IMG/VR virus record: IMGVR_UViG_3300021171_000021
Span: 1 to 44,355 of that record
Length of the DNA: 44,355 nucleotides
Source of the DNA: a virus
Reading direction: 5' to 3' (one strand)
Every line of letters begins with the position of its first letter. The first letter of the stretch is position 1. This document shows, piece by piece, positions 11,660 through 36,037 of the stretch. The notes under the pieces are model-generated. The model saw only the letters and a program-made list of their open reading frames with translations, was not told the origin of the DNA and ran no database searches. The position numbers and the translations under genes are program-made.

Positions 11660-13408
11660 TTGGCCCTTACGCTTACCCGATCCGAAGTCCGACAACTCGA
11701 AGCCATTCCGCCTTCCGCGTTCTCCGCTCTATTACGCCCCGATCAGGACCCCAAGAAGCAGAAGAAAAAGAAGAAAGAAGGGAACCCTTATCATGATGCG
11801 CGTGGTGAGTTCTCTAGCGGTGGCGACGGGGGCGGCGAAGGCGGTAAAGGGGTAGGCGATCTGAACGGAACGGATAAAGAATATCTCGCCACCACGCTCG
11901 CCAATGACGAGAACTCTTCAGATTCGGAATTAAAAGCTCACTTCATCCGGCAGGGATTCAGCAAGTCTCTGGCCTCCAAAGTGGTGTCAGCCCGCGGAAA
12001 ATTCCTGAAAGGCGAATACAAAAACTCGAGCGATTTGATGAAGCATCTTGGCGCAGGCACAGAATCTAATCGCGTGATTGAGTCGGCCGCTGTTCTTACT
12101 TCCAAAGATGCCGTCGTTGATCCCGACAACAAGCAAAAGCTTTTAAAAGGCCCGATCTGCAAGGTCGTTCTAATTACCGAAGGTTTGGGCAATATGCGCG
12201 ACAAGAACTATTACGGCCCGGAAGCCATCGAGTCCGGCGCGCGCATCTTTGAAGGCTCGGTCATGATGCAGGACCATTTGGGATTTATTGAGGAGCAGGA
12301 TATCCCAGAGGGCCGGGTCGGAAAGACCGTCGCCTATTATAAGAACTGCAAATCTGAGATGGTGGACACCCCGGAAGGAAAGAAGCTGGGGATCACCGCC
12401 GAAGCGCATTTTGATTTAAGCCAAGAGGGATTGAATGCCTATCAGAAAGCCAAGACCGCCGTTCACTACCGGGACGAGTTCCCGGCGACGGACCGGGAGT
12501 ATGTGGGGATTTCGGTCAATGCCATCGGCGAGTCCGAGCCCCGGATCATGAACGTGAACGGGCAGGAGCTCGAAGTCAATTACGTCATGCGATTTGCAGA
12601 AGGATCCCGTGGTGCGGATATGGTGACATTGCCGGCACGGGGAGGAAGTTTCCGAGCGCTCGTTGAGGATATCTACGGCGCACAACCAACCAAGGAGGTC
12701 CAGATGAAGAAATTGCTTGAAGCGCTTGAGAAGGCCCAGGCCTCTCTCAAAGAAGCAATAGCCGAAAAGGACGCGAAAGTGCGCCAGACGAAGACGCTCG
12801 AAGCTCAAAAGGCTCTTGAGGTATCCATTAAGGCGATCCGGGAAGCCAAGCTCGTTCCGTCAGGAGAAGGCACCCAGGGCGGCCAAACAACGATCAAATC
12901 GAATATGGAAGACGACGTTCAGCATGACCCGGACAATCCCGACTGTGAGTGCGAAGCCTGCAAGCCTTCCGCCGAAGGCGACGCCGGTGCTGATGGCGCC
13001 GGGGATGGGGATGGCAAAGGCGGAGACGGTGACGATGGCGTATCCAGCCATGTCGTGAAGCATACCGTAACCTCCAAAGGCAAAGCCGCTATTGCGGCGG
13101 CCGCCAAGCAGGAATCAGAACGGAGAGAACTGATGAAATCGGCCGTTGAAAAGATTATTGAGGAATCCGGGATCGACAAAAAGTATTTCGATATCCCGGC
13201 CCTTTGCGCCATGAGCTTCAAAGAGGCCAAAGCCGATATCGCAAAGCAAAAGCGCATGCACGAAGCCGCTGTAGCAACCGTCCTGGCGAAGGTGGGCCAG
13301 GGCGTCTCAGCCTCGCATCGCGCGCGAGAGAGCGGATCCGGAGCCGGTGGGAATGAAGGCGACGCACCCAATAACGCCGAATTTCCGCTCCTCTCGGTCG
13401 CGGAATAG
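11660..13408 (+). CDS. Capsid maturation protease fused to scaffold
   Basis: A 582-residue protein. After a basic and Gly-rich N-terminal linker with an NPYHDARGEFSS segment (residues about 42-53), residues about 163-345 look like a prohead protease domain: GPICKVVLITEGLGNMRDK, then YYGPEAIESGARIFEG, then MMQDHLG and GRVGKTVAYYKN, the order seen in phage peptidases that precede the capsid gene. From 349 the protein becomes a charged coiled coil, an acidic Gly/Asp-rich linker and a further helical region, as in scaffolds. TTG 11660 has GGAGA upstream and no ATG competes. It would cleave scaffold and capsid protein during maturation. Confidence 0.7.
   Translation: MALTLTRSEVRQLEAIPPSAFSALLRPDQDPKKQKKKKKEGNPYHDARGEFSSGGDGGGEGGKGVGDLNGTDKEYLATTLANDENSSDSELKAHFIRQGFSKSLASKVVSARGKFLKGEYKNSSDLMKHLGAGTESNRVIESAAVLTSKDAVVDPDNKQKLLKGPICKVVLITEGLGNMRDKNYYGPEAIESGARIFEGSVMMQDHLGFIEEQDIPEGRVGKTVAYYKNCKSEMVDTPEGKKLGITAEAHFDLSQEGLNAYQKAKTAVHYRDEFPATDREYVGISVNAIGESEPRIMNVNGQELEVNYVMRFAEGSRGADMVTLPARGGSFRALVEDIYGAQPTKEVQMKKLLEALEKAQASLKEAIAEKDAKVRQTKTLEAQKALEVSIKAIREAKLVPSGEGTQGGQTTIKSNMEDDVQHDPDNPDCECEACKPSAEGDAGADGAGDGDGKGGDGDDGVSSHVVKHTVTSKGKAAIAAAAKQESERRELMKSAVEKIIEESGIDKKYFDIPALCAMSFKEAKADIAKQKRMHEAAVATVLAKVGQGVSASHRARESGSGAGGNEGDAPNNAEFPLLSVAE
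12692..12698 (+). promoter_or_regulatory. Strong internal ribosome binding site for the scaffold
   Basis: AAGGAGG is complementary to the 3' end of 16S rRNA and lies five bases before an in-frame ATG in the middle of the protease gene. Strong sites of this kind elsewhere in the genome mark real starts (for example at 8672, 13418 and 13924), which is why the internal start is taken seriously. Confidence 0.7.
12704..13408 (+). CDS. Internal in-frame start: independent scaffold protein
   Basis: Within the protease gene, ATG 12704 (codon 349, same frame) is preceded by AAGGAGG at 12692-12698, five bases away, the best Shine-Dalgarno in this gene. Translation from here gives 234 residues starting MKKLLEALEKAQASLKEA, a charged coiled coil with an acidic Gly/Asp linker and a C-terminal helical segment, which is a typical scaffold. 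This is the same arrangement as lambda C and Nu3, where the scaffold is the separately started C-terminal part of the protease. Inferred from sequence; the product would be made in excess over the protease. Confidence 0.7.
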   Translation: MKKLLEALEKAQASLKEAIAEKDAKVRQTKTLEAQKALEVSIKAIREAKLVPSGEGTQGGQTTIKSNMEDDVQHDPDNPDCECEACKPSAEGDAGADGAGDGDGKGGDGDDGVSSHVVKHTVTSKGKAAIAAAAKQESERRELMKSAVEKIIEESGIDKKYFDIPALCAMSFKEAKADIAKQKRMHEAAVATVLAKVGQGVSASHRARESGSGAGGNEGDAPNNAEFPLLSVAE

Positions 13409-13417
13409 GGAGGACTT

Positions 13418-13912
13418 ATGGCTTACGTATCATTAACAGCATCAATCGACAACATCGTCATCAAATATCAGGACCCGGTACCGTATCCCCAAGATACATC
13501 ACTGGCCAATGTCATCAACGCCGGGGATCTCGTATGGTATGACACGGCTAACCATTGGATCGCTTCTGTGGATACAGACGCTCACGCCGCGACCTTTGCC
13601 GGAGTGGCCATGGATGGGTCTTCGATCCAGCCCTACACCACCAAGTTCGCCATGCCGCAGTTGCCGGTAATGACCAAGGGCATTGCGCGATTCAAAGGAA
13701 CGAGCGGAGATACTTACCACGACGGCGATTCGGTCTATCAGACCACCTCCGCCGCCGGGGATCCGCAAACAATCACGAACACCGCTGGAGGCAACACTCA
13801 CGTGCTGGGCACGATTGTCCTTCCTCCCGGTATCACGTCGGCCGCGTTCGCCGCGGGCACACTGTATCAGGTGAAGATTTCACCTCTGTGGCCTGTGACG
13901 ATGGCCGCGTAA
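13418..13912 (+). CDS. Head decoration-like protein
   Basis: A 164-residue beta-rich protein between scaffold and capsid genes with a strong ribosome binding site (GGGAGG). It lacks cysteines and contains repeated Gly/Thr/Ala turns (INAGDLVWYDT, FAGVAMDGSS, YHDGDSVYQTT, AGTLYQVKISP) like the small capsid-stabilising proteins of the DUF2190 or lambda gpD type. Such proteins bind the expanded head. The match is by context and composition. Confidence 0.6.
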   Translation: MAYVSLTASIDNIVIKYQDPVPYPQDTSLANVINAGDLVWYDTANHWIASVDTDAHAATFAGVAMDGSSIQPYTTKFAMPQLPVMTKGIARFKGTSGDTYHDGDSVYQTTSAAGDPQTITNTAGGNTHVLGTIVLPPGITSAAFAAGTLYQVKISPLWPVTMAA

Positions 13913-13923
13913 GGAGGAATGAA

Positions 13924-15186
13924 ATGAATGCTACCGCCGAAGAATTAGACCAGCGCGAAGAGCAGATTCGCGCCATCGCCAAGGAATCCAAAGACCTCCG
14001 CTACCAAATGGCCCGAATGGAAAATGAAGCCATTTGTACGCATGTACGAGAGTCTTACGGGATTGATGTCATGGACAAGACCCGGTTCAACTTCAAGAGT
14101 CCCAAGTTCTCTATTCGCGGGATGAAGGAAGCGTGTTATCGGGTGGCGGGGAAGTTCCGCGAGACGAATCCGGAGGCCGCGTTTTCTGCGGTTCTCCGTG
14201 CGGGCGTCAATAACTTCGCCAACCAATGGTATCAGCTGACGCAGACGGTCTATGACCAGATCGTCTCGACCACGCCATCCACTCATGCGGTCGAACCGTA
14301 TGCGCCGATCCCGCGGGGATCGATCCCGACCCGTGTTCCGCGTGGGACGCCGTTCCGGGAGGTAAAGATCCAGGCGCCGGCCGACATTCAGATCATCAAT
14401 GAGAAGTATGGTGCTCTGTCCTCGGCTCCGCAGGAGTTAATCGACGACGATCAGACGGCCCAGATTGTGGACCGGATGATGGATATCGGTCCCAACATGG
14501 CGCTCTTGGAAGAAGTCTGGGTCATGTCGAAGTTCATCTCGCCATCGGGCGGAACGCTGTACAAGGGCGAGATCATTCCCGCGTCTTATACGAAGCCTTC
14601 GATTGAAACTGCTTCCACCTGGCCCTGGTCGACGAGTATGTTAGGCGGGGGTCAAAACCGGCTCACGACCTACATCGTCTTTAACCAGAACTCGGTACAG
14701 GCGGCAGACTACATTCTTTCCATTCAACAGGATCAAAACGGAAACTTTATAGCCGTCGATCCCGATACCATTCTCGCTGGCCCGGGCTTAAAATTCTTGG
14801 CGGCGAAGCTGATGAATGACAGTTGGTACCCTTCGACCGTAGCGATGTTGCCCGGCGGCGGACAGGCCGGAAGCACCTCGATTGGCGGTGTGGGAGCCAC
14901 TTCCACAGCCACCAATCTGGGAGTGAATGTCACTGAAAACGCGATGAAGGGCATGTATCGCCCGGTCATCAGCCGCTTCCTTCCACCGCAAGCATGGGCG
15001 CTGGGCATGGCTCATCGGGGAATGACATTCCAGATGCGGCAGGGATTATCGGTCGTTCAGCAAATGCCTTTATCGGGATCCTCGTTTACCCATGACGAAA
15101 TCGTCTGGCGGAGCCGTGCACGCTGGGCGGTTGAAATCATTGATATGCGCTTTTGGTGTCTCGGAAACGATGGTTCAGCCACCTAA
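13924..15186 (+). CDS. Major capsid protein
   Basis: A 420-residue protein from ATG 13924 with AAGGAGGA upstream. The order protease/scaffold, decoration, this gene, then connectors identifies it as the HK97-fold major head protein. It starts with a helical delta-domain-like segment (EELDQREEQIRAIAKESKDL), followed by a mixed region with an APADIQIINEKYGAL stretch and a C-terminal beta-rich part ending WAVEIIDMRFWCLG. A longer in-frame ORF from 13555 runs through the previous gene and is not used. It should be the most abundant virion protein. Confidence 0.85.
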   Translation: MNATAEELDQREEQIRAIAKESKDLRYQMARMENEAICTHVRESYGIDVMDKTRFNFKSPKFSIRGMKEACYRVAGKFRETNPEAAFSAVLRAGVNNFANQWYQLTQTVYDQIVSTTPSTHAVEPYAPIPRGSIPTRVPRGTPFREVKIQAPADIQIINEKYGALSSAPQELIDDDQTAQIVDRMMDIGPNMALLEEVWVMSKFISPSGGTLYKGEIIPASYTKPSIETASTWPWSTSMLGGGQNRLTTYIVFNQNSVQAADYILSIQQDQNGNFIAVDPDTILAGPGLKFLAAKLMNDSWYPSTVAMLPGGGQAGSTSIGGVGATSTATNLGVNVTENAMKGMYRPVISRFLPPQAWALGMAHRGMTFQMRQGLSVVQQMPLSGSSFTHDEIVWRSRARWAVEIIDMRFWCLGNDGSAT

Positions 15187-15205
15187 TTCATAAATGGATG
15201 ACGCG

Positions 15206-15234
15206 GGGGCCGTCGCCTTTTGCGGGGCGGCCCC
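15206..15234 (+). terminator. GC-rich hairpin after the capsid gene
   Basis: GGGGCCG (15206-15212) pairs with CGGCCCC (15228-15234), with a further CGC/GCG pair inside around a T-rich loop. It sits in the only gap of the head block, just after the capsid stop. There is no clear T-run after it, so it may reduce read-through or protect the capsid message 3' end and not fully terminate. Confidence 0.5.
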
Positions 15235-15259
15235 TCATCCTCCAAAGAGGACTCCAATT

Positions 15260-16981
15260 ATGAAAAGACTCATCGCCGCCGTATCTCTCCTTGGATCGCT
15301 GGCCGCCGTCGGCCATGCGATGACTCCTAGCCTCACGACGCCCATCTACAACGGTGTCATCGCCTCCTCTCAGAACGTGATCGTGGATATGAACGCCGCG
15401 CGCATCGATTACATGAGCTTGACGGCGAGCTATTCTTCGGCAACACTTTCCACCTCCACTTTTGTAGATGGTGCAAAATCATCGGTCAACATTACGCTCG
15501 GATCGACATCCAGCTATGTTTCGCTGGGATCTAGTGACACGCTCACGGTCAGCACGAACTCCGCTTTGTTTGCGACGGCCGGAACGATCAGCGTCAACGT
15601 ATCTTCCGCCGGTCCGGGTCCGCTCACGTTCTCAACGCTTACGATTAACGGGGTCAATATCTTCCCGGGCACCGCCGTTATTGTGGTCTCGTCCACGTCC
15701 TATGCGACCTGGATCTCAACGACCATTAACGCGACCGTTCCAAATGTAACGGCGGCCGTCGTTCCTTTAGGCGGAAGCACGTTCACCATCACCTGCGTGA
15801 ATCCCGGATCCTTCTGCAACACCTATAAAGTGACCTCGAGCACCCCAGCCCTGGCCGTTGTGGACAGCACAGGGACGACGACGCTTGGCCCCGCCTTCTT
15901 TTATAACGGAGCCGACAATGGCAACTTCACGATTTCCGGTCCGGGCTTCTCAAAGCTCTATTCGGAAGACGTGGAATGGAATGCAGACGAGCTTGGCTAT
16001 TCCAGCAATACAGCCGTCTCAATTGCGAACGCCATCAACGCCAACCAAGCCAGCCTTTTAACAGCCTCTACCCTTACGGCTACGACGGTCTTAATTGTGG
16101 CCGACAATACTGGCATTGTTGGAAATCAGTATACCCTGGCGTCGAGCACAGGCGCCTTAACGGTCGGGAAGGCTACCTTTATCGGAGGTCAAGCTCCCGC
16201 GTCGATCGCCATCAATGGCGTGACGAAAACGGCCGGAGTGAACTGGACCATCGGATTATCGAGCGTGACGGCCTCCACGGGACTTGTCGTGGCGATCAAT
16301 TCGGATCCTGTCCTATCGACCATCATCATCGCGACCACTAATGTGACCTGTCCGGGATGTGGGATTGTCTATGCCACGGCGACGGCGAACGGGATCAACA
16401 ATTACCCAGTCACCCCATCGACAGGCACCATCATCGTATCGAGTACGAACTTCACCGGGGGCGGAGTAAGCGCCGTCAATACATCGAACAATTCTCTTCT
16501 CCTTCCGAGCCATGGATTCGCAACAGGAACAGCGGTCACATTTACCACGACGGCGGGGACGCCTCCCGGCAAGCTGTTCAGCGGAACGAACTATTTTGTG
16601 GTCGCTTTGGATGCTAACGATATCCAGCTCGCCTCAAGCTATGCCAACGCCACGGCGGTTCCGCCCGTCGTGATCGGAATATCGACCCAGACCATAAACG
16701 GCGGCGGAACCTTCACGGTCGGTCCGTTGGCGATTAACGGCGCGTTGGGCCTGAGCTGGTATTCCTCCGATGACGCCGTGAACTATAACGTTCTCATGCT
16801 TCCCAATAATGTGACGGTCTCGACCGTCAGCTTTGCGCCCAGCGCGGCGGCCGCGTCCACCTATTGGGATTTCGGTCAAGTGAATGCCCGGTATCTCGAG
16901 CTGAAGATTGCAGGCCCAACGGCTGGCGATTACAATCTCACGGTGACGCCTTATGGCAAGAGTCTTGCCAATGGCTATTGA
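15260..16981 (+). CDS. Signal-peptide-bearing beta-rich protein in the head/neck block
   Basis: A 573-residue protein from ATG 15260 (GAGGA upstream). Residues 1-20 are a classic Sec signal: basic MKR, a hydrophobic core LIAAVSLLGSLAAV, and a GHA cleavage site. The rest is Ser/Thr/Gly/Ala-rich beta structure with repeated VxxSTGxxxxSS-type strands and a few Cys pairs (TCVNPGSFC, TCPGC), resembling bacterial surface or fibre proteins. It lies between the major capsid and connector genes, where a virion protein is expected. Export of a capsid-block protein has no usual explanation: it may be displayed on the host, be a fibre assembled in the periplasm, or be exported to modify the envelope. Confidence 0.65.
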   Translation: MKRLIAAVSLLGSLAAVGHAMTPSLTTPIYNGVIASSQNVIVDMNAARIDYMSLTASYSSATLSTSTFVDGAKSSVNITLGSTSSYVSLGSSDTLTVSTNSALFATAGTISVNVSSAGPGPLTFSTLTINGVNIFPGTAVIVVSSTSYATWISTTINATVPNVTAAVVPLGGSTFTITCVNPGSFCNTYKVTSSTPALAVVDSTGTTTLGPAFFYNGADNGNFTISGPGFSKLYSEDVEWNADELGYSSNTAVSIANAINANQASLLTASTLTATTVLIVADNTGIVGNQYTLASSTGALTVGKATFIGGQAPASIAINGVTKTAGVNWTIGLSSVTASTGLVVAINSDPVLSTIIIATTNVTCPGCGIVYATATANGINNYPVTPSTGTIIVSSTNFTGGGVSAVNTSNNSLLLPSHGFATGTAVTFTTTAGTPPGKLFSGTNYFVVALDANDIQLASSYANATAVPPVVIGISTQTINGGGTFTVGPLAINGALGLSWYSSDDAVNYNVLMLPNNVTVSTVSFAPSAAAASTYWDFGQVNARYLELKIAGPTAGDYNLTVTPYGKSLANGY

Positions 16982-17399
16982 TGCTCCTTATGGCGTTACC
17001 CTTCCTCCGCGCCGGAGCTTACCCACCGAAGAAGCGGAACTGGAACGCGAGCTCGCTGAGCTCGATGAAATCCAGCGCAAGAACCTCCGCGCCAAAGAAC
17101 GCGCCCGGGATCCGATAGCCGAACTTTTCGGCGGCAAGTTCTGCATTCTCAATAAATGTTTTTGGTTCATCGACTATCAGAGCGCGCCGGTCCGCGTGCA
17201 TCGCTACTATCCCGACAAAAACGTGGCTGTCGATGTGTTCCCGGTCATCGGTCCAGAGGAAACCCGCGAGATCGCGTTTAAGCGGGTGGCGTTCAAAAGA
17301 GAGCGGATCCGTTACGGCGCCCTGTCCTATGCCATGGACGTGGCCCAACTCCTTCCGCAGATTGAGCATGTAAGGCTATGGCCTTTCAGAAAGGATTGA
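16971..17399 (+). CDS. Small neck-region protein
   Basis: A 142-residue protein from ATG 16971, overlapping the previous stop (an in-frame ATG at 16953 would add six residues). It has a strongly charged helix (EEAELERELAELDEIQRKNLRAKERARD) written here as motif region residues 20-47, then a compact beta domain (FCILNKCFWFIDYQ, then VRVHRYYPDKNVAVDVFPV). It could be a connector accessory protein. No family recognised. Confidence 0.55.
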   Translation: MAIDAPYGVTLPPRRSLPTEEAELERELAELDEIQRKNLRAKERARDPIAELFGGKFCILNKCFWFIDYQSAPVRVHRYYPDKNVAVDVFPVIGPEETREIAFKRVAFKRERIRYGALSYAMDVAQLLPQIEHVRLWPFRKD

Positions 17400-17400
17400 G

Positions 17401-18432
17401 ATGCTGATTCAGGTTGTCGCCGCAACAGGTCAAACGGTATACGTGTTCATCTGGAACGCCCTGGGCCAGATTTGGAATGGCACCTCGTTTGTCACGTATG
17501 TGCAGGCGAATTGGGCTACCTATGTGATCAGCGCGGTAGAGCAAGCAGGATCCGGGAGCTACTTCGCCACGGTGCCATCTGGGATCACCACGGCCGGAAC
17601 TTACAGCTTTGCCGGATACATCCAGCTCCACGGAAGCCCAGCTTCCGGGGATACGCCTGTCGCTCAAGGGCCATTCACTATTCCGCCCGCGGTATCCACT
17701 TTCATCGTCCCGGCAACGCTCGCCGGGCTCATCACGGATCTACGGATCTTGGTGGAGGATGCTCCGGATTCCAAAATCGTCTATGGCGAGCAGTTGGGTC
17801 TTTCGGACCAGCCGATGTTCCCCGTGAACGGCGTCAATAAGAATTTCAGGCTTAAAAAACCGTTGCTTTCTGATTATGTGGGATCTGCACTCTATACTTG
17901 GGTGACGGTGGTGGGGACCGGCGCGGTGGCTCGGACCCAGGTCGGATTTACCATCGCCGATCAGATCAACGGCGTCATCAGCTTCACCAGCGCCCCAGAC
18001 CCCGGCGGCGGGACCTATCCTACAGCCCCCCCCAACGGCGTCTACGTAGACTACAACTATGAGTGGTTTTCGGATGCAAAATACGCGCAATTCCTATATC
18101 AGGCGGCGCAGATGACGCTGGCCGGGACGACCGACCCGACCACCATTCCGAACGGTCTAACGGATGCCATGCTTCAGTATGGGGTTTATTTGACCTTTAC
18201 GGCGCTCGCTGGGCGGTTTGCTCAGGAGTTCGCGAGCTCTGGCGGCGAGGCCCACGCGGACGCCCAGCAACCGGCCCAGGTCTATAGGAGCTTGGCAAAG
18301 GACGCCAAAGCCAACGCCGACCAGCTGAAGAAGGATTTTTACATGCGCCAAGGTCAGCGCGAGGCCCCGGCATTCGTCAATCCAACGAGCTTTCCGCCGT
18401 CGCGCTTTGACCGGATCACACCCAGGAGATGA
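17401..18432 (+). CDS. Head-tail connector/neck protein with Ig-like N-terminal domain
   Basis: A 343-residue protein. Residues about 1-95 form a beta domain often found at the start of phage neck or fibre proteins (QTVYVFIWNALGQIWNG, then Y..NWATYVISAVEQAGSGSYF..VPSGI). Residues about 105-330 are a mixed domain rich in helices (AKYAQFLYQAAQMTLAG, then LTDAMLQYGVYLTFTALAG) with the gp6-like connector layout. It follows the SP-bearing protein and precedes the morphogenesis-type tail genes. The exact connector class cannot be fixed by reading alone. Confidence 0.55.
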   Translation: MLIQVVAATGQTVYVFIWNALGQIWNGTSFVTYVQANWATYVISAVEQAGSGSYFATVPSGITTAGTYSFAGYIQLHGSPASGDTPVAQGPFTIPPAVSTFIVPATLAGLITDLRILVEDAPDSKIVYGEQLGLSDQPMFPVNGVNKNFRLKKPLLSDYVGSALYTWVTVVGTGAVARTQVGFTIADQINGVISFTSAPDPGGGTYPTAPPNGVYVDYNYEWFSDAKYAQFLYQAAQMTLAGTTDPTTIPNGLTDAMLQYGVYLTFTALAGRFAQEFASSGGEAHADAQQPAQVYRSLAKDAKANADQLKKDFYMRQGQREAPAFVNPTSFPPSRFDRITPRR

Positions 18433-18433
18433 C

Positions 18434-19075
18434 ATGCCTGCCCTGAATTTTACGATCAAGGTGTTGATGGACAACCCCGAGACCATGCCGGAGCTCGAGG
18501 CCCGGGTGTCGGACTTATCTCCCGCCTTTGCGGCCATCTTTGACGCCTGGGTGAAGACGAATGCCCAGAAGTTCCAGCAGTCCGTAGGGGCAGAGCAGAC
18601 AGGCGCCGGCATATTTGATGAGGAGTGGGCGGCCGTGACGCCTCAATACTACCGCGCCAAGCACCGCCTGGGCTCTCCCAAGGTCACCCAGAAGGCCGCC
18701 AGGGGCGGCAAGGCTCGCTTTGCAGGGGCTTTTCCGGACTGGTTGATGGTTCGGACGGGTGCCCTCCGGGAAGCCATGACCAATCCAGACGCCTTATTTC
18801 ACGAATTTGATGCACAAATGGCGATGTTTGGACTGCCAGAGGATCCATTTCTGGCGAATCTTGTGGAATGGCAGGCGGGACCTCGGCAAAAGGATCGCTT
18901 TGTCGTATTTCTGGCGGATCCCGACAGGAACGCCATCGAGCAGATACTTCAGGATTATTTCAGTTTAGGCGCTAATTTCGCATCGATTCGACAGGCCAAG
19001 GCTTTGGCGGCTGTCGGATACGCTCCAATCGATGCTTTGGGAATGGAGGCCGATTTTGAGGAACCCGGGCTTTGA
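18434..19075 (+). CDS. Virion morphogenesis / tail completion-like protein
   Basis: A 213-residue protein from ATG 18434 (GGAG upstream). It shows features of phage virion morphogenesis proteins of the gp10/Mu gpG kind: W-x7-Y-x2-K (EEWAAVTPQYYRAKHRLG), a basic linker, FPDWLMVRTGALREAM and a C-terminal helix. These proteins complete the head-tail joining interface. The stop overlaps the next gene as TTGA. Confidence 0.55.
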   Translation: MPALNFTIKVLMDNPETMPELEARVSDLSPAFAAIFDAWVKTNAQKFQQSVGAEQTGAGIFDEEWAAVTPQYYRAKHRLGSPKVTQKAARGGKARFAGAFPDWLMVRTGALREAMTNPDALFHEFDAQMAMFGLPEDPFLANLVEWQAGPRQKDRFVVFLADPDRNAIEQILQDYFSLGANFASIRQAKALAAVGYAPIDALGMEADFEEPGL

Positions 19076-23712: not shown

Positions 23713-24792
23713 ATGAGAAATAAATCAGGTTGGTTAATCAGCTCATTCCTTCTACTTCTCGCATCAAAAGCAGGGTGGTGCGATACATTCACCAACCGAT
23801 TGAATTTGGACTTGCCTAGCATCGGCGCGGTGAATTGGGGAACAACGGTGAATAATAACATGACCACAATCGATTCTAATATCACAGTGCCCGGAAACGG
23901 AGTGGTGGTGGGCCAATGCATGCAGTACAGTGGGAATCAAACCTTTGGAACCTCGGGGGCGTCCTGCGGAACGACAACCGGAGTCGGGACGCCATTGGCT
24001 ATTTATGTCGGCGCGACGAACATTTCCTCACCGACGGCGAACGTCATATTTTCCACCTACAACCCAATCAACGTCACCGGATCCGGAGGATTCAAAGGCA
24101 CATTCATTGCAAACGCGACCAGTTTTATCCAGATCAACTCTTCCCAGACATTCGTCAATTTGACGGTCAGTTCCAATACGACCTTGCCGGGGGCGGTGTT
24201 CTACCAAGGCCAACCGACTCAGATCACAAACGCTTATTCGGGATTCTTTGCCAATCCTGCTGGACAGAGTATTTATGGAAACTTCGTCGGCTCTACGACA
24301 GTCGCCGCCGCATCGAGTGCGACCGTCAATTTCAGCGGATACAACCAATACGTCATAAAGATCGATGCGTTAAACAATGTAGCATCCAATGAAACATTGG
24401 TTCTGCGATTTAATAATGATGCCAACTCGGACTATTCATTTTCATTCCAAGGGTTTTTAATCGGCGCATCAACAGGCGTGTTCTGTGCTCATAACGGAGC
24501 GACCGGGATTCTGCTCTCTGGAATCAATAACGTCGAAAATACGCAATCCACGTTTCAGACCTGCACGCTGAATCTTCATGCCGTCAATTACGGATATAAG
24601 AAGCTGGAGGGGACGTGCAGTTATTCGGAGACGAGCGCATTGGATGAGGTTAATTTAAACATTGCAGCGGAAGTGCACCAAACTCCCGTGACTTCGTTGC
24701 AGGTCTTTTTCGGAGTGGATACGGGATGCACGACGCAGACCGATGTCTTAACGGGAACCACCGCGACCGTGGAAGTATGGGGAGTGTTCTGA
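23713..24792 (+). CDS. Signal-peptide-bearing tail fibre-like protein
   Basis: A 359-residue protein. Residues 1-20 form a Sec signal (MRNKSG, hydrophobic WLISSFLLLL, likely cut near ASKA). Right after it comes TFTNRLNLDLPSIGAVNWGT, a form of the T-x2-L-x-L-x2-P-x-G..W motif at the N-termini of tail fibres, then N..M..ID at residues 48-55. The remaining part is beta-rich with eight cysteines, consistent with disulfides in the periplasm. Seen: both elements in one frame, start with TAG of the previous gene two bases away. Inference: an exported fibre or surface-displayed protein. Confidence 0.65.
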   Translation: MRNKSGWLISSFLLLLASKAGWCDTFTNRLNLDLPSIGAVNWGTTVNNNMTTIDSNITVPGNGVVVGQCMQYSGNQTFGTSGASCGTTTGVGTPLAIYVGATNISSPTANVIFSTYNPINVTGSGGFKGTFIANATSFIQINSSQTFVNLTVSSNTTLPGAVFYQGQPTQITNAYSGFFANPAGQSIYGNFVGSTTVAAASSATVNFSGYNQYVIKIDALNNVASNETLVLRFNNDANSDYSFSFQGFLIGASTGVFCAHNGATGILLSGINNVENTQSTFQTCTLNLHAVNYGYKKLEGTCSYSETSALDEVNLNIAAEVHQTPVTSLQVFFGVDTGCTTQTDVLTGTTATVEVWGVF

Positions 24793-27741
24793 TTGGCCCT
24801 CGCCGTCAGCACCGCATTCAAAAACGCCCAGGTGGCGGATATCAACACGCCCGCCGCCAAGGTCCAGCTCATGTTGGGAAACTACTTCAACGCCTCGGCC
24901 TATGGCGCGACGATCGCTTCCAATGGGGATGATGCGTCTGGGAACTACCCGGCGGCCGGAGCGATTGATGGCGACCGCACCGAGATCAATGTCGGCGCGG
25001 CTTCCGGAGCCGATAACGGAATAGGGCTTTCGTCCTGGCGCTCCGCGGCCAATCCTTCCGGGGGATCCCCGGCCACACTCACGATCACGCTCAAAGCCGC
25101 CCAATCCCTCAATCGCATAAAGCTCTATCATCTTTCGACGGATTCGCTCACCAGTTACGATCTCGAATATTTCAACGGCACTTCCTGGATCGTATTTGCC
25201 GCTACATCTGGAATCGTTATGGCTGGGCAGGTATCCATCCCAACGACGGGGACGCTGGACGTCGTGAACTTTCCAACCATTACAGCCACGCAATGGCGCC
25301 TTTCGGTTTATGGGTCCACGAGCGGTCACGCCAACGTGGTCGAGATCGAGGGTTATCAGCTGGTAGATATCACGGCCCGGGTGAAATCGGTCAAAGTCTC
25401 GCGCCAGAGGGATTACAAAATCGCTAACCCTATGGCCGCCAAAGTGACACTCGACTGCATTAACACGGACCAGTTCTTTTCGATCAATTACACGCCAACG
25501 CCTGCCCAGACAGCGGCTGGCTTCGTGAACTCGCAACTTCTTCCAAATGCGGTGATCCTCGTCACGGCAGGATTCTTTTTAACGTCCGGATCCTCCGCCG
25601 GATCGCCCGAGCTCGTGCCATCGATCACGGCTTACATGGATTCGATTACGGTGAAGCCCCTTTCCCGCACGGCCGTCATCGAAGGCCGCGATGGGGTAAA
25701 AGGCCTTATCAACTTGACCGATTCCAGCAACCTGAAAACCAATGCGGATATCACGACCTGCATTCAGTATGTGCTAAACCGGGCCAATCTCTCAAGCTTC
25801 GAGTGCTCCCTCAACACCACCGGCGTTACCATCCCCTATTTTTTCACGGACCAAGAGGACATCCTCAGCACCGTTCGCAATCTGACGCAGGCTGCGGGCG
25901 ACGCCCTTTTCTGGTTTGATGAAAACGGGATCGCCACATTCCGATACTATACCGCGGACACCCCGGAGCAATGGCTCTATCCGAGTCAAACGGACTGGAA
26001 CCTAGGATCCTTCACCGGAAATGTGACAAAGAATGCGAGCGATCAGTTGGATTTACAGCTCAGCTATGGGCCGCCGATCATTACTTGCACGGATCCGAAC
26101 AGCATCTTCATTTATAACCCCTCGATCCAAAACAATAACTCTGGAGCAGTCAATGGGATGGCGCAATCCATACGACTTCCCTTCCCAACCCAGTTAAGCA
26201 ATGTCACTTTCACCATCACCTACAGTATTGCGTTAAATTTTGGATTGTTTTTCCACGTATGGGCGGACAATGGCGGATCGCCCGGCACCGTTCTTTATTC
26301 GCAACAGATCGCCAGCAATAGTTCAGGGACAACGACCTTTAATTTGAACTTGGCGGTTACCTTAGCGGCTGGCAATTACTGGATCGGCGTCGATGATGGC
26401 GGAACGGACGAAGGGACGATCTCGGGATTCTATCCTGCGTTCCTCGGCAACCAAAGTCCGCCGCTTCAGAATCCGCCCTATCTCTGTCTTGGAGTGTTTG
26501 ATGCTGGGCCTACAGCGGGTCAATGGACCCTGCTTCAAGCATGGGTTCCCGGAAATTTTCAATTTAGGCAAACGGCAGGCAATATCTTTATGAGCTTTTC
26601 ATTTGACACGGCCGCTGGATCTGGAACGTGGCAATCGCCTGTGCATGACATGGGCGCCGGTGTGGTTTCCTTGGGCCAGCTGCAGATGCTGGCCGTTCCG
26701 AGCGGCGGCACCATTAGCGCGATGACGCGAACCTCAGCGAATGGAATCTCGGGATGGTCTCCCTATGTGGCGCTGTCGTCCACCGGGAACATCCTTTCAC
26801 CCGTTAATGAGTTCATACAATTTCAAATCTTTATGGCCGTTGGGATCACAACGGTATCGGATCCGCTCGTCCTCAATGTCACGCTGAATTGGACGGGAGG
26901 ATCCGGCAATGCCAAATATCCCCCCAAACCGTCATCCTGGACATTCAGCTTCGCCTCGAACCTTCTGAACGTGTCCCAGGAGTTGGCCGATAATCTGGGC
27001 GGTGATTCTTCTATCCTGAACGATGTGATCGTGAATGCCCAGCCCTATGTGCTCCAAGGAGCAAGCACCGATGTGGTCTGGCAAGGAACCATTGGCACAC
27101 CGCCGGTCAACATCTCCGCGGGCGTCCCATTGTCGGTGACGAGCGGCCAGACCTTAATTTATCCGCTCTATATTTCCGGCGGTATGGATATTGGATCGAT
27201 GTCGGGCGCGAACCCGGCCGCCGCGACCATCACCTTTGCGGCTGGCGGAGCGGGATCCTGGTCCTTTACCACGATCCATCCGACGCTTCCGGTGCTTCAG
27301 ATCGTCATCACGGGAACGGGCACCATCACGAATCTGCAGGTGCTCGGAAAAACATTTTCTAGCGGCACTATTACCGCCGTCAATGCCCAGATCCAGAGCA
27401 CGACGCAGGGCATTGAGATCACAAGCAAGCCATCGATCGCATCCTTTGGAAGACGTAAAGCGACCATCTCGAATCCCTGGATTGTGAGCGCCGCCATCGC
27501 GACCAATATCGCCCAGGCGATCATCAACAATTTTGCCAATCCATTTTCCTACATCCCGTCCGTGGATCTGCAGTTCACGCCGGCGGCTCAAGTCGGAGAC
27601 CGCGTGACAGTCATCGATCAGAACACCGCATTAAATAACGATTATCTGATTGTGGGATTGGACCATGAGATCAGCGTCCAGGAAAAGCGCGCCAGCATCC
27701 AGACCACGGCGACGCTTTTGCTCGTCCCGGCAGGCTATTGA
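24793..27741 (+). CDS. Tail tip / baseplate hub protein with discoidin-like domain
   Basis: A 982-residue protein from TTG 24793, directly after the previous stop. Residues about 30-190 resemble an F5/8 type C (discoidin) domain: AIDGD near the start, then SLNRIKLYHLSTDSLTSYDL, FNGTSW and ATQWRLSVYG, then VVEIEGYQL. The middle carries tail hub features (VKVSRQRDYKIANPMAAKV, then ITAYMDSITVKPLSRTAVI), and the end (GDRVTVIDQNTALNNDYLIV) matches the C-terminal hub fold (gp44/Mu gpP-like). The protein probably forms the tail tip and binds a host carbohydrate. No signal peptide, unlike its neighbours. Confidence 0.65.
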   Translation: MALAVSTAFKNAQVADINTPAAKVQLMLGNYFNASAYGATIASNGDDASGNYPAAGAIDGDRTEINVGAASGADNGIGLSSWRSAANPSGGSPATLTITLKAAQSLNRIKLYHLSTDSLTSYDLEYFNGTSWIVFAATSGIVMAGQVSIPTTGTLDVVNFPTITATQWRLSVYGSTSGHANVVEIEGYQLVDITARVKSVKVSRQRDYKIANPMAAKVTLDCINTDQFFSINYTPTPAQTAAGFVNSQLLPNAVILVTAGFFLTSGSSAGSPELVPSITAYMDSITVKPLSRTAVIEGRDGVKGLINLTDSSNLKTNADITTCIQYVLNRANLSSFECSLNTTGVTIPYFFTDQEDILSTVRNLTQAAGDALFWFDENGIATFRYYTADTPEQWLYPSQTDWNLGSFTGNVTKNASDQLDLQLSYGPPIITCTDPNSIFIYNPSIQNNNSGAVNGMAQSIRLPFPTQLSNVTFTITYSIALNFGLFFHVWADNGGSPGTVLYSQQIASNSSGTTTFNLNLAVTLAAGNYWIGVDDGGTDEGTISGFYPAFLGNQSPPLQNPPYLCLGVFDAGPTAGQWTLLQAWVPGNFQFRQTAGNIFMSFSFDTAAGSGTWQSPVHDMGAGVVSLGQLQMLAVPSGGTISAMTRTSANGISGWSPYVALSSTGNILSPVNEFIQFQIFMAVGITTVSDPLVLNVTLNWTGGSGNAKYPPKPSSWTFSFASNLLNVSQELADNLGGDSSILNDVIVNAQPYVLQGASTDVVWQGTIGTPPVNISAGVPLSVTSGQTLIYPLYISGGMDIGSMSGANPAAATITFAAGGAGSWSFTTIHPTLPVLQIVITGTGTITNLQVLGKTFSSGTITAVNAQIQSTTQGIEITSKPSIASFGRRKATISNPWIVSAAIATNIAQAIINNFANPFSYIPSVDLQFTPAAQVGDRVTVIDQNTALNNDYLIVGLDHEISVQEKRASIQTTATLLLVPAGY

Positions 27742-29867
27742 TGCGCGCACTTCGGCTCATCGGACTTCTGGCTTTGGCCGGACCGGCCTGGGCGATTGTG
27801 GGATCCAATGTCCAGCCCATCGTAACTCCGGCCCAGGTCCTTTTTGGATCGCCCGTTAAAACGATCACGAGCACCGGAACGGTAACGATCAGCACCATCA
27901 CGGGAACTCTGGCCGTCCAGAATATCGTCATCAATGGGACCTGTACGGGCCCGGGATGCGCGGCGGGAGGTGGGGTCATCCCTTTTTCGTTAGGTATTAC
28001 CACGGGAGGGCCCACGGCTTTTCTAGGCCCATTGATTTCAACCTCCGCGACGACGACTACCATTCTTTTCGATTCGGCCACGACGCTGGGTTCATTGATC
28101 TCGAATAACACCTATTTTTGGCAAGCCAATCCTTCCAGCGTCACGCTTCAAGGAAACAATCTCGCATTAACCTATCTCACGAACAGCTCTGCCACAGCCA
28201 CCTACCTTCAACAGTCCTCGGCGACACTGACCTATGTCAATAAGAACCAGGCCAATAACGGGACCGTGACGAACGTCACAGGAACAGCGCCTATTATCGT
28301 TGGCAACGGATCAACCACGCCAGCCATCAGCCTCAATCAAACCATTGCCCAGACCGAGACCTTCACGTCCAGCGTCACGATCCCTGCTCCCCAGGGAGAG
28401 AACGTCACCTTCGGCGTGACGGCAGGAACCTTTACAGGAAACGGCGCGGCCATCACGAGCCTGACTGGGGCGAACATCACGACGAATATCCCCTCGACGG
28501 TGTTGCCGTCGACCATTGCCTATACGACCGTCGCCAACAACTTTACGTCATCGCAGACCATATCGAACCAGACACTCCATACCTCTACCGTCACGATCCT
28601 TTCGAACCCTTCGGCGCTTTATGATCTTTGGGTGGCATCGAATGTAGCGGGGACGCCCGGAACGACGGCCCACCTGTTTGTCAGTACGACAGGAGCAGTC
28701 AACATACCGGCCGCGGGCGGATTGACCGTTGCGAATGCTGTTACCGCGAGCAGTTTTACGTTCATCACAGGGCCTACGGTGACTTCGCAGGTCATTCAGA
28801 CCTCCACCATTACGATGGTATTCGAGAATGCAAACAACGATTTTTCACATTCGAATGCAGGTCAGTTCGAATTTATGAACGCTGACAATTCCCAAGTCAA
28901 GATCACGGGAGGCCCGACGTTTGGAGGAGGACTGGATATCTTTGGAGACAGCACGACAAAGCATTCGGCCATTGAATTGGACCAGGGAGGACAAAATTCT
29001 TCGGGGCGTTTCGCATTTGGTCACGATGGGTTTATTTCTGGAAACGATTTCTGGATCGATGGATTCACGACGGCAGGCAACACCCGAATGAGGGTCTATG
29101 ATGTGGACTCGGCAGCGCTGCAACAGGTAACGGTAGGTGTCAATGGGTCTGGCGGCGGTGCCAATCGCCTCCTTCGGATTATCGATGCGGGCGTGACTTC
29201 GGATGTGGTCCCCGCCAATATCAATTCCACGCAAACCTGGAGCGCGGCACAGACCTTTACGCAACCCACCACCTTTACGTCGAGTGTCACCGTCACGGCT
29301 CCGTTAGGAGAAAATGTGGTCTTTGGTTTATCCGTCGGAACCATGACGGGCGCCGGTCTTGGCACCTGCGGCGATACGACCCACGCCCTGGGGTTTACTT
29401 CAACAGGCACCTTTACTTGCCAGAATGTAACGGGATCCGGGGGAGGGGGCGGCGGGTCATCTTTGGCAATTGGTTTGGGTTCGACAGCAACTTTTACCAC
29501 GCAGATATCGAGCCCCACGCAACCCCTCTCCTTCGATATCAGCCAGTTTTCAGGGCAACTCCTAGGGACGACAACTGGATTTATTACGATTGCCTATTCC
29601 ACAAATGCCCAGACAACTAGCTATACGGCAGTTTCGACGGATACGGTGGTGGAGGCAAACTGCGCCTCGGCTTGTACGGTGACGCTTCCGACGGCTGTTA
29701 ATCGGAAAGGAAAAAGATTTAATATAAAAATGATCGGGGTAGGTCCTGTCACGATTGCCACGGTGGCAAGCCAGACGATTGATGGGAGTACAACCGTCAC
29801 ACCAAATCCGAATCAGTACGTCGATATTGAGGTGGAATCCGATGGCTCAAACTATGACATCTTATAG
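27741..29867 (+). CDS. Signal-peptide-bearing tail fibre with internal repeats
   Basis: A 708-residue protein. Residues 1-18 are a clear Sec signal (MRALRLIGLLALAGPAWA, canonical A-W-A). The rest is Thr/Ser/Val beta structure typical of fibres, with two related blocks, TFTSSVTIPAPQGENVTFG (about residue 210) and TFTSSVTVTAPLGENVVFG (about residue 515), and a C-terminal domain with TVTLPTAVNRKGKRFNIK and TIDGSTTVTPNPNQY, found in fibre and receptor-binding proteins. Start: ATG 27741, overlapping the preceding TGA by one base. Export of a fibre protein is unusual for a phage. Confidence 0.65.
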   Translation: MRALRLIGLLALAGPAWAIVGSNVQPIVTPAQVLFGSPVKTITSTGTVTISTITGTLAVQNIVINGTCTGPGCAAGGGVIPFSLGITTGGPTAFLGPLISTSATTTTILFDSATTLGSLISNNTYFWQANPSSVTLQGNNLALTYLTNSSATATYLQQSSATLTYVNKNQANNGTVTNVTGTAPIIVGNGSTTPAISLNQTIAQTETFTSSVTIPAPQGENVTFGVTAGTFTGNGAAITSLTGANITTNIPSTVLPSTIAYTTVANNFTSSQTISNQTLHTSTVTILSNPSALYDLWVASNVAGTPGTTAHLFVSTTGAVNIPAAGGLTVANAVTASSFTFITGPTVTSQVIQTSTITMVFENANNDFSHSNAGQFEFMNADNSQVKITGGPTFGGGLDIFGDSTTKHSAIELDQGGQNSSGRFAFGHDGFISGNDFWIDGFTTAGNTRMRVYDVDSAALQQVTVGVNGSGGGANRLLRIIDAGVTSDVVPANINSTQTWSAAQTFTQPTTFTSSVTVTAPLGENVVFGLSVGTMTGAGLGTCGDTTHALGFTSTGTFTCQNVTGSGGGGGGSSLAIGLGSTATFTTQISSPTQPLSFDISQFSGQLLGTTTGFITIAYSTNAQTTSYTAVSTDTVVEANCASACTVTLPTAVNRKGKRFNIKMIGVGPVTIATVASQTIDGSTTVTPNPNQYVDIEVESDGSNYDIL

Positions 29868-31431
29868 AAAGATTCTTTTAGGCGTTCTCTGCCTCCCTGC
29901 TATGTCCTGGGCGTCTTATCAGCCAGTTACGGGATCATCCGTCACGGTATTTCAACCCACGGGAACCAGCTTGCAGACCACGGCGAACCCTTCAGGAACA
30001 TATACGATCACGCCAGGAACTGGCACCTTTCAGACCAATAACGCCGCCACGCTCAATACGGTCAGCACCAATACGACTATTCTCCAAGCCGTCCAGCTGG
30101 CATCTGGGACAGTCACGAACCCTTTGCAGGTTAACAATGCCGCTACATTGAATGTCGTGAGTACGGCTCCTACCATCGTAACCTTGACCACCGTCACTTT
30201 TAACGGTATCGCTCAGCCAGTCAATACGCTCAATGTGGGGGTTTACATCGATTCGTCACCTTACACGCAGGCCATCTCCTCGATGGCTCCTGTAGGAGGG
30301 CTTTACCAGCAGATATTGATCCCTTTTGTGAGTACCACCACGGCGGCTTTCCGCATGAACCAGTACCGAGCACTCTATGTGGTTCCTTCTGATGCAAATG
30401 GCGTGATTCTCGGGACCGCTACGACTAATCCCAATATCGTTGGATTCGGAGGGACCGCCCAGCCAGTCACGCAATCGGGGCTTTTCAGTATCGCCAATTC
30501 AACGCTAGGCGTAGTCCCTGGAGGGCCACCGTTTGTCGTGACTTTAACCACCGTAACGTTTAACGGCGCGACTCAGCCGGTGAGCAATGCGGCTACATTG
30601 AACGTCGTCAGCACAAACGTCGTCATTCCAGCCACGGTGAACGTCGTGAGCACCAACGTAGTTATTCTCCAGGCGGTTCAGTTGGCGTCGAGCACAATCC
30701 AAACCAACAACGCCGCTACGCTGAATGTGGTGAGCACTTATACCACCATCGTTTCCACCTATGCCGACAATGGGGCTCTTGCCAACGCCAACCGCTTCAA
30801 TGTCTTGCCTGCGATCTATGGGTCGGATTATTTAGACGGCTCAGCGGCTACGGATGATTTTAATGCCGCCTTGTATGTCGGAACCCGCGACGGTGGTTTG
30901 CGTACCACGCAGATTATGAATTTTACAGACCACAGCTATTCCGTTTCGACGGGTCCTTTTACCGTCCCGAATAGCACGATTGACGTAAGCGGCATTTGCG
31001 GAAACGCCACAAACAATGTCGGGATCGTCGGAATCCGCGTAAGCGCGACCCAGACCACGGCGGGGATTGTCCCTCTCCTGGTCGTTCGACGATCCACGCA
31101 GTATACGGGAATCTACAGCACCATGGTAGCGTCAGGGTATGACCCCACGACGTATTCGGTGCCTTTGTCCTCGGCGATCTTCTTTAACAGTACGGACGGC
31201 CATCAGTTGAACGGGACATATCTGACAACGCTCGATTCGTATAATCTGGGGATCATGGCAACAGGGACTGCCACGCCGAATGATATCTACATCAGTCCCG
31301 CATCCTGGCGAACTGACCCGCCGGTTTTAAGAGGGGTCACGCAATGTCTTGGCATAAGTACTCAAGGCAACGTCGTATCGGGAGGGAAGTTCAATGTGAG
31401 TTGGTTTTGGAAAGAAGTCGTAGCACCCTAG
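29854..31431 (+). CDS. Signal-peptide-bearing repeat-rich fibre-like protein
   Basis: About 525 residues from ATG 29854 (ATG 29842 is an in-frame alternative). Residues 1-20 form a Sec signal (MTSYRKILLGVLCLPAMSWA). The protein then has at least five copies of an NNAATLNVVST-type repeat (also seen as variants ATLNTVST and TVNVVST) and two TLTTVTFNG..QPV blocks, a collagen-free repetitive shaft, then a globular C-terminal part (about residues 320-525) with aromatic and Cys residues. It looks like a fibre shaft plus receptor-binding tip but is predicted to be exported. Confidence 0.6.
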   Translation: MTSYRKILLGVLCLPAMSWASYQPVTGSSVTVFQPTGTSLQTTANPSGTYTITPGTGTFQTNNAATLNTVSTNTTILQAVQLASGTVTNPLQVNNAATLNVVSTAPTIVTLTTVTFNGIAQPVNTLNVGVYIDSSPYTQAISSMAPVGGLYQQILIPFVSTTTAAFRMNQYRALYVVPSDANGVILGTATTNPNIVGFGGTAQPVTQSGLFSIANSTLGVVPGGPPFVVTLTTVTFNGATQPVSNAATLNVVSTNVVIPATVNVVSTNVVILQAVQLASSTIQTNNAATLNVVSTYTTIVSTYADNGALANANRFNVLPAIYGSDYLDGSAATDDFNAALYVGTRDGGLRTTQIMNFTDHSYSVSTGPFTVPNSTIDVSGICGNATNNVGIVGIRVSATQTTAGIVPLLVVRRSTQYTGIYSTMVASGYDPTTYSVPLSSAIFFNSTDGHQLNGTYLTTLDSYNLGIMATGTATPNDIYISPASWRTDPPVLRGVTQCLGISTQGNVVSGGKFNVSWFWKEVVAP

Positions 31432-31440
31432 GGAGGTTTT

Positions 31441-31878
31441 ATGGCTTGGTCCGCCGTCGTTCAAGGCACTGACACACAGAATCAAATCGTGCACCTTCTT
31501 TTTACGGAAAGTGTAACGGGACAGACCTTTGCGAACCAGTACCCGATTCCATTAGGTGCGCCTGCTACTTTCCTGGGAGATTTGGTTGCCCAGGTCATTG
31601 CCCAACTTACGGCCCAACAGTCGGTGTCTACGGCTATTCCTCAGCCTGGTGAGGTGGTTCTTCCAACTCCTACGCCCGTCATTGTTCCTGATCCGAACGC
31701 CGCGATGAAAGCCCAATTCCTAGCCGATTATCAGCTTTTGAAACAGATGCAGACGGCCATTGCTCATAACATCTTGACGGCGGCGGACCTGACCTTTACG
31801 GCGCAACTGGCGAAGGTGACGAGTGAGCTTGCGGCCAATCAAGCAATTCTCTTGCCGCTGATTCAAACAGGACCATGA
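31441..31878 (+). CDS. Unknown small tail-region protein
   Basis: A 145-residue protein with AGGGAGG upstream of ATG 31441. It lacks a signal peptide and Cys, has a beta N-terminus (WSAVVQGTDTQNQIVHLLF), a Pro-rich linker in the middle (LPTPTPVIVPDPN) and a helical end (AQLAKVTSELAANQAILLPL). It sits between two exported proteins and could be a fibre chaperone or adaptor. No family recognised. Confidence 0.6.
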   Translation: MAWSAVVQGTDTQNQIVHLLFTESVTGQTFANQYPIPLGAPATFLGDLVAQVIAQLTAQQSVSTAIPQPGEVVLPTPTPVIVPDPNAAMKAQFLADYQLLKQMQTAIAHNILTAADLTFTAQLAKVTSELAANQAILLPLIQTGP

Positions 31879-32612
31879 AATACGCAGCTCTTTTTGTGCT
31901 TCTCATTCCCGTGTCGGGATGGTCAGCCATTGCGGTTAGTTCACAGACTTTTCATCAGCACACAGGAGCCGCCGGAGTCGATACCTGGACCTTTAACTGC
32001 AACGGCGGAAATCTTCTTGTTTTAGCTCCAATTTCTTCACAAGGTTTTTTGGTGGTGGGATCAAGTTTTAATGGTGTTAATTTAACTATGAGCACCCAAA
32101 CGATTAATGGGAGTGGCCCCACGGCAGCGGCGTTGTGGTACTTGGTTAATCCCTCGGCGGGCAGTAACACCATGTCCATTACGTGGAGCGATACGGGCGG
32201 AAGTGTAAATCAAGGAGCTGGAGCCGTCTGTTTTTCTGGGGTGAACACTTCTGCTCCTATTGATGTGGCGAATTGCAGTATTTCAGGAAGCGGGGGAACG
32301 ACGGTCACGGTGAATTTAGTGACTACGGTAAATAATGATTTTTTAGACGATGTACTTATGAATAATTCACAGACTATAACTATCACATCAGGTTCAGGAA
32401 CCATTCAATGGTTTCATAACGGAGTGACGGAACCTCCTTTTGGTATTCAAATCGGATCGACAAAAGGTCCCGTTTCGACAGGCTCTAATTCAATGACCTA
32501 TGTGACTACAAACACCTTTTCACAGCCCACTTACTGCGGTCTTGCGGTTGAACCGGCAGCGGTGGCTGGCGGCGGTTCTCCCAAGATGATGAAGATGGAG
32601 ACCTGCGATTAA
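31875..32612 (+). CDS. Signal-peptide-bearing lectin-like protein
   Basis: A 245-residue protein from ATG 31875 (ATGA overlap). Residues 1-17 are a Sec signal (MKYAALFVLLIPVSGWS). The rest is a beta sandwich-like domain with repeated short strands, including LWYLVNPSAGSNTMSITWS, typical of LamG/concanavalin-like modules, and five to six cysteines. The C-terminus is a basic-acidic tail (KMMKMETCD). It resembles a secreted carbohydrate-binding protein. Functional link to the virion is unknown. Confidence 0.6.
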   Translation: MKYAALFVLLIPVSGWSAIAVSSQTFHQHTGAAGVDTWTFNCNGGNLLVLAPISSQGFLVVGSSFNGVNLTMSTQTINGSGPTAAALWYLVNPSAGSNTMSITWSDTGGSVNQGAGAVCFSGVNTSAPIDVANCSISGSGGTTVTVNLVTTVNNDFLDDVLMNNSQTITITSGSGTIQWFHNGVTEPPFGIQIGSTKGPVSTGSNSMTYVTTNTFSQPTYCGLAVEPAAVAGGGSPKMMKMETCD

Positions 32613-32624
32613 GGAGACATTGTC

Positions 32625-32921
32625 ATGATGAAAAGAGTAAGTCTTATGTTCTTATTGACGGGAACTCTTGTGGCCGCCCCGATCACTCAGTCCAATATAC
32701 CGACGGTGCGGCAGGTCATGGAGGCGCAAGTGATCCCGGCCATCGTTCGTCTCAATCAATTCGCGCATGATGCGGGGGATTTTAGCGATGCGGGGTTTGC
32801 CTTCCAAGTCAAGTACAGTTGCACGACAGTCCCAGCGGACCCGCAACAAATCGCGGATATCATAACCACTTACGCCACGCTAAAAGCCCAGTTAATCGCG
32901 GCCGTGAACGCTCTTCCATGA
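32625..32921 (+). CDS. Signal-peptide-bearing small protein
   Basis: A 98-residue protein from ATG 32625 (AAGGAG upstream) with a Sec signal (KRVSLMFLLTGTLVAA) at residues 3-18, then an all-helical mature part of about 80 residues with YSCTTVPADPQQIADI. A small periplasmic protein is likely. No known family. Confidence 0.6.
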   Translation: MMKRVSLMFLLTGTLVAAPITQSNIPTVRQVMEAQVIPAIVRLNQFAHDAGDFSDAGFAFQVKYSCTTVPADPQQIADIITTYATLKAQLIAAVNALP

Positions 32922-35533: not shown

Positions 35534-36037
35534 ATGACTCAACCAGGGGATCTCCTGCTTTTCCGGGTCGGCCCGGGATCCCCGTTTTTAGGAAAGCTGA
35601 TCGGCTGGGGCCAGAAGGTCATCGGCCAGGCGCCCACCAAAGCGGCTTACGATCATGTGGCACTCGCGGGCAGGATCCGGGGCGAAATCGTAGAGGCCTA
35701 CTGGCCGCGGGTCCGGGTCCGGGAATATGACCCGGAGGGAGATCCCAACGTGGAGCTCTACCGGGATCCGAACGCCACTCCCCAGCAGATCGATTCCATC
35801 ATGACCTACGCCTATGCCCATAAAGGCGAGTGGTACAACCTCACCGGGCTCCTGACCTTCGGCCTCGTGCAATTGGGCCATTCGGTTGTGTGCTCTCAGT
35901 TCGCGTGGAAATGCTACATGGGATCGGACTACACCACCGCGGGATATACGCCTGCCGGCATCACGCTCTGCCCCCCCGCCCGACTCATCACCCCCGACGA
36001 CATCGCCGGATCCGCCAGCCTTATTAAGGTCGTCTAA
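35534..36037 (+). CDS. Permuted NlpC/P60-like (YiiX/YaeF-type) hydrolase
   Basis: A 167-residue protein with the circularly permuted papain-like layout: GDLLLFR near the start, a catalytic His in AAYDHVAL (His41), an acidic residue in EIVEAYW (Glu54), and a Cys in VVCSQFAWKC (Cys120). Enzymes of this type act on peptidoglycan peptides or lipid/peptide amides. Together with the M15 peptidase it gives the phage two potential cell-wall enzymes; this one could serve lysis or DNA entry. It lies just before the promoter at 36091. Confidence 0.7.
   Translation: MTQPGDLLLFRVGPGSPFLGKLIGWGQKVIGQAPTKAAYDHVALAGRIRGEIVEAYWPRVRVREYDPEGDPNVELYRDPNATPQQIDSIMTYAYAHKGEWYNLTGLLTFGLVQLGHSVVCSQFAWKCYMGSDYTTAGYTPAGITLCPPARLITPDDIAGSASLIKVV

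Follow-up and report, generated by a model that had tools for sequence, protein, structure and literature searches.

The gene at 15260..16981 (plus strand) of the window, by which we mean the whole stretch of DNA analysed, a linear virus record of 44,355 nucleotides (44.4 kb), encodes a predicted exported, fibre-type protein of 573 aa. The reading that we favour, tentatively and with a probability of roughly 0.43, is that this is a late, Sec-exported adhesin of the tail-fibre type, and that the exported set to which it belongs docks on phage particles at lysis. An export signal, fibre modules, a location among structural genes and conservation are supported at the sequence level, and the virion is slightly favoured over the cell surface as the final location of the protein. 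We infer high expression and a surface or virion location, as did the first-pass annotation of this DNA.

The gene, its start and its Sec signal are real. The reading frame was examined as one of five aligned family members, and its product begins with MKRLIAAVSLLGSLAAVGHA|MTPS.... An alternative in-frame ATG, which would lengthen the protein, lies at 15194; a strong Shine-Dalgarno sequence, AAAGAGGA (15244..15251, plus strand), located 8 bases before 15260, and a matching start residue in four relatives identify 15260 as the start. The Sec signal peptide (15260..15319, plus strand; residues 1-20) has n, h and c regions and was called with a rule-based detector, which applies these regions and the -3/-1 rule, is not a trained predictor, and detects Lom of phage lambda. 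The cut after GHA at residue 20 was picked by eye, the detector's own best cut being after residue 16. Sec export, as predicted from these features, is well supported. The mature protein would have 553 residues, with 27% Ser+Thr and 4 Cys; no lipobox is present in the sequence. No family in Pfam, PHROG or PDB matched the whole protein (best PDB sequence E value, 0.12). The mature part had been described as beta-rich and Ser/Thr-rich; the latter holds, while the former can be argued only from composition, repeat type and low-confidence models.

The window follows the plan of a long-tailed phage, with terminase, portal and a MuF-like head protein onward, and also encodes a Mu-gpT-like capsid, a tail tube (PF18906), a tape measure and a tail tip. 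Immediately upstream of the 15260 gene lies the gene of the Mu gpT-like major capsid protein (13924..15186, true start 13924), which is 41% identical to the capsid of G003 (IMGVR_UViG_3300036760_000260), a related siphophage. It is preceded by a gene for a putative decoration protein (13418..13912), which has a syntenic G003 homologue (38%); a profile search gave no match for it, and the decoration label is our reading. The gene after the 15260 gene (16953..17399) has no named function and a homologue at the same place in G003; all these genes are on the plus strand. The gene had been placed between capsid and connector genes. The capsid assignment is correct; 'connector' is plausible by position, with no profile match supporting this label for the genes at 16953-19075. 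The GC-rich hairpin noticed between the capsid gene and the 15260 gene (15205..15235, plus strand; z -4.8) is real but ordinary, because a hairpin also follows the capsid gene directly in G003 and in HK97. No promoter-like sites above chance were found in 13300-17500. Elsewhere, the window encodes an N6/N4 DNA methylase fused to a ParB N-terminal domain (39303-40712), a 2OG-Fe(II) oxygenase upstream of the packaging genes (1938-2735), and a protein matching PHROG 1128 (35534-36037; enoyl-CoA hydratase-like, moron category, E=2e-10).

Single-sequence searches of viral contigs with the 15260 protein, capsid, terminase and portal yielded no usable relative, nor did a search of genome contigs with the 15260 protein alone; no relatives turned up in the cellular genomes searched, and terminase-based relatives of the window had almost no other gene in common with it. 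The family was found via a DNA pattern, built by hand, that encodes the C-terminal motif DFGxVxxRY, followed by an alignment search that led to L140. Full-length relatives are present in three other uncultivated tailed phages: G003 (BLAST, 36% identity), G004 (3300050821_003741) and L140 (3300044260_000008, two copies). A signal peptide is found in 5/5 family copies, the mature parts of which are only 25-46% identical, and no full-length family protein without a signal was found. In G003, the order of decoration gene, capsid gene, homologue and next gene is that of the window, and a further probable signal-bearing gene follows (14917; recognised by eye, missed by the detector). In G004 and L140, which are of contractile-tail type, the family gene belongs to the tail-fibre block and comes straight after a gene for a collar fibre without a signal (the Collar domain is Pfam-confirmed for G004, and the L140 gene is homologous). 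The gene after the G004 homologue codes for a signal-bearing Peptidase_S74 fibre (29.4 bits versus a curated cut-off of 22; phrog_1980 tail fiber, 5.7e-12), the signal of which was read by eye and missed by the detector. Three consecutive signal-bearing genes are also seen between the likely portal and capsid genes of G004 (L136, 9441-12162). The family is thus found next to the capsid gene in the window and G003 and among the tail-fibre genes of G004 and L140; a location that varies in this way does not tie it to a single docking site.

The first-pass annotation's central observation, an exported protein encoded inside the head block, therefore stands, and the arrangement is kept in a second siphophage, G003. 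That the oddity is specific to the head does not: the same family occupies the tail-fibre block of two myophage-type genomes, the protein shares modules with tail fibres and with baseplate wedges, and signals occur in no fewer than five other genes of the window. Relatives lacking the signal and a start elsewhere had both been envisaged as refutations, and neither was seen: the signal is retained in the relatives, and 15260 holds as the start.

The mature protein is modular (all coordinates are on the plus strand). Its N-terminal domain (15320..15622) contains a YSSAT...F.DG.KS motif common to the family. Three repeats of ~95 residues follow. Repeat 1 (15623..15916) matches Flagellin_IN weakly (E=2.8) and has a Cys pair, C179/C186, that is also present in the G003 relative; repeat 2 (15917..16201) is a tail-sheath-type domain (phrog_165 tail sheath, E=0.0011; 3.9e-7 for the L140 relative); repeat 3 (16193..16471) holds a CPGC sequence (C364/C367). 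The next module (16469..16660; SHGFATG...YFVVALDANDIQLAS) is of a tail-fibre or baseplate-wedge kind, and matches phrog_38233 tail fiber (1.8e-8) and phrog_2885 baseplate wedge (1.1e-6); the G003 copy is 60% identical to a Franklin22 minor tail protein (E=1e-8). The C-terminal domain (16700..16978) has conserved W.SDD and YWDFGxVxxRY motifs. Judged by these matches, the protein contains the fibre-type modules that mark tail fibres and receptor-binding proteins. No Pfam match to the C-terminal intramolecular chaperone domain Peptidase_S74 was obtained. AlphaFold models reached a pLDDT of 37 without an alignment and 43 with four sequences, and a Foldseek search of PDB with the low-confidence model returned only E>1; because of this low confidence, no fold is claimed.

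Signals were detected at 6 of the 24 gene starts in the structural block of the window (15260, 23713, 27741, 29854, 31875 and 32628), versus 0/83 virion genes in four enterobacterial control phages (lambda, HK97, Mu and P2), in agreement with the earlier statement that structural genes normally lack signals. The detector background was 0/393 at internal in-frame starts and 0.2% for shuffled N-termini; in 1.1 Mb of terminase-related viral loci, there were 16 hits among 1513 long open frames, many spurious by eye. The additional genes, which the first-pass entry on 15260-16981 does not mention, are all on the plus strand. They comprise a fibre gene (23713..24792) whose LNLDLPSIGAVNWGTTVNNN start domain matches the N-terminus of the G004 S74 fibre at 48%, a fibre-like gene (27741..29867) with a Cys-bearing motif, GTCGDTTHALGFTSTGTFTC, and, as called by the signal detector, a second fibre-like gene (29854..31431), a beta-type gene (31875..32612) and a small gene of 97 aa (32628..32921). 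Products of the window's five large signal-bearing genes, the 15260 gene among them, contain 26% Ser+Thr and 6% charged residues, compared with 14% and 19% in the others. Cys enrichment in the signal-bearing proteins of the four family genomes was not significant (p=0.11), and the notion that even Cys counts prove disulphides was dropped, since parity (18/23) was little better than in controls (24/34). The 27741-29867 product and Tunturi_4 gp111 and gp113 have a common two-Cys motif, GTCGD(A/T)TH...G.(A/F)T.C, the form known from signal-less fibres being GTYGSAT...VT. The comparison would suggest an added disulphide in signal-bearing fibres.

In Tunturi_4, a cultured Acidobacteriota phage, gp111, gp113 and gp114 are signal-bearing. 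For gp111, the signal appears when a TTG lying 357 bases further upstream is taken as the start; the annotated start (L147 40077-43172, PP885687) looks wrong, and the open frame extends upstream of it. The N-terminal domain is common to gp111 and gp113, which differ in the C-terminal parts behind it, a pattern seen in fibre sets; judged by eye, gp111 resembles a lyase of the tailspike type, and gp114 a beta-helix protein. The start domain shared by the 23713 product and the G004 S74 fibre is also found, with no signal in front of it, in gp112, the product of an ordinary-looking tail gene, and the signals thus precede domains that ordinary tail genes also use. The paper describing Tunturi_4 does not mention signal peptides (PMC11924767), and, according to a survey of phage retroelement-diversified proteins, phage targets lack the signals of bacterial surface proteins (PMC6199706). 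Tunturi_3, also from Tunturiibacter, has no signals in its first 28 genes (0/28); given this result, the idea that signals are a trait of Acidobacteriota phages was dropped. Signal-bearing genes inside head or tail blocks were also seen at L073 7790-9170, L091 3391-3822 and 8407-10891, and L096 6899-7243, several of them with FN3-type repeats; some of the additional viral examples were retrieved because they resembled a signal-bearing protein, and the examples therefore speak to recurrence, not frequency. A repeat protein with a signal-like N-terminus is encoded in the head block of an archaeal virus (L002 13026-13721; vir525, a Methanosarcinales virus), and a beta-helix-like protein with a lipoprotein-type signal (L087 20846-22825; Rctr41k gp46) adjoins a tail fibre bearing the same module as the 15260 protein. 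In the literature searched, which included few subscription papers, exported fibre proteins of tailed phages were not described.

We propose that the 15260 protein would be made late and co-expressed with the capsid, as its position suggests, exported by Sec, and then relieved of its signal and matured outside the cytoplasm. The exported fibre-type set would fold in the periplasm, some members with disulphides, and would attach to particles once the inner membrane gives way during lysis; most likely, these proteins are receptor- or surface-binding appendages, with a ligand that we infer. Since tailed-phage particles are assembled inside the cytoplasm, it has to be asked whether exported fibres get to the particle at all and, if so, by what route. 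We know of no export-then-dock route for tailed phages, and no two-compartment assembly route for them was described in the literature searched. A phage class in which virions, complete in all other respects, receive Sec-exported, periplasm-matured tail or head fibres at lysis is possible, but we would not count on it. Docking is favoured because of the virion gene order, the fibre modules and the signal-less start domain of gp112. It is further supported by retention of the signal in all five diverged family members, none of full length lacking it, by G003 synteny, by the place of the G004 homologue between a collar fibre and a signal-bearing S74 fibre, and by the excess of signal genes in the window over control virion genes.

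Docking is weakened by the differing place of the family and by the signal-less collar fibres beside its homologues in G004 and L140. The same two facts speak for a quite plausible alternative, though one we hold to be short of probable, in which the proteins are exported and never on virions. They would then be adhesins or enzymes located on the infected cell or in its surroundings, where they would mask receptors, prevent superinfection or the loss of progeny to debris, or act on the matrix. Exported phage proteins such as Lom do exist near tail genes, and the lyase-like gp111 and beta-helix-like gp114 of Tunturi_4, as read by eye, would suit such roles. However, fibre start domains are kept after the signal, and the genes sit within the virion gene order; if receptors were masked by a copied binding domain, homology would be expected between signal-bearing and signal-less virion proteins within a genome, and this was absent. 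An uncleaved hydrophobic N-terminus, serving as a signal anchor or as a tether of fibres to membrane or capsid, is improbable: cleavage of the 15260 protein is a prediction, and the hydrophobic core is long in some related proteins (L140_10001 and the L073 proteins carry a TM flag), but textbook n, h and c regions and A-x-A type sites are present in nearly all. Very unlikely is the view that the signals have no function and came along as baggage when host surface genes were captured into fibre genes; beta modules common to fibre and bacterial surface proteins and the lack of such signals in Tunturi_3 agree with it, while retention in 5/5 diverged members, and also in other, unrelated fibre genes that these phages carry, does not. 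An artefact of start choice or chance, which the longer frame from 15194 might invite, is hardly credible given the Shine-Dalgarno sequence, the relatives and a chance rate of at most about 0.5% per gene.

Whether or not docking takes place, exported fibre-type sets in virion operons imply either a second assembly compartment or exported adhesins acting on the cell. Annotation of receptor-binding candidates of uncultivated phages would change, as would their expression (in an oxidising compartment), and the question is testable in the cultured pair Tunturi_4 / Tunturiibacter M8UP27.

Among known systems, phrog_38233, phrog_2885, Franklin22 gp18, phiLM21 p062 and Rctr41k gp45 have a homologous module of ~60 residues in common with the 15260 protein. 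The rest of the protein is unrelated to proteins of the Franklin22 gp18, phiLM21 p062 and Rctr41k gp45 type, and the two that were checked, gp18 and p062, lack the signal peptide that it has. The signal also sets it apart from cytoplasmic tail fibres, which have no export signal. The domain of Peptidase_S74 tail fibres is present in the signal-bearing neighbour in G004 and absent from the 15260 protein; to our knowledge, classic S74 (chaperone of endosialidase) fibres are made without export signals. A capsid decoration protein or head fibre would be tied to the capsid block, and for the family this tie fails, G004 and L140 having it in the tail-fibre block. Lambda Lom and Bor and T5 Llp are, like the 15260 gene, phage genes with an export signal, and Lom adjoins tail genes. 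Their products are small outer-membrane proteins or lipoproteins, whereas the 15260 protein is large (573 aa), modular, of fibre type and encoded next to the capsid gene; with no Pfam match, no lipobox and no promoter-like sites above chance around its gene, it does not look like the small outer-membrane barrel or lipoprotein with its own transcription unit that characterises Lom/Bor-type morons. Tunturi_4 gp111, gp113 and gp114 (tail fiber, tail protein and virion structural, respectively), although not homologous to the 15260 protein, are like it both signal-bearing and of fibre type.
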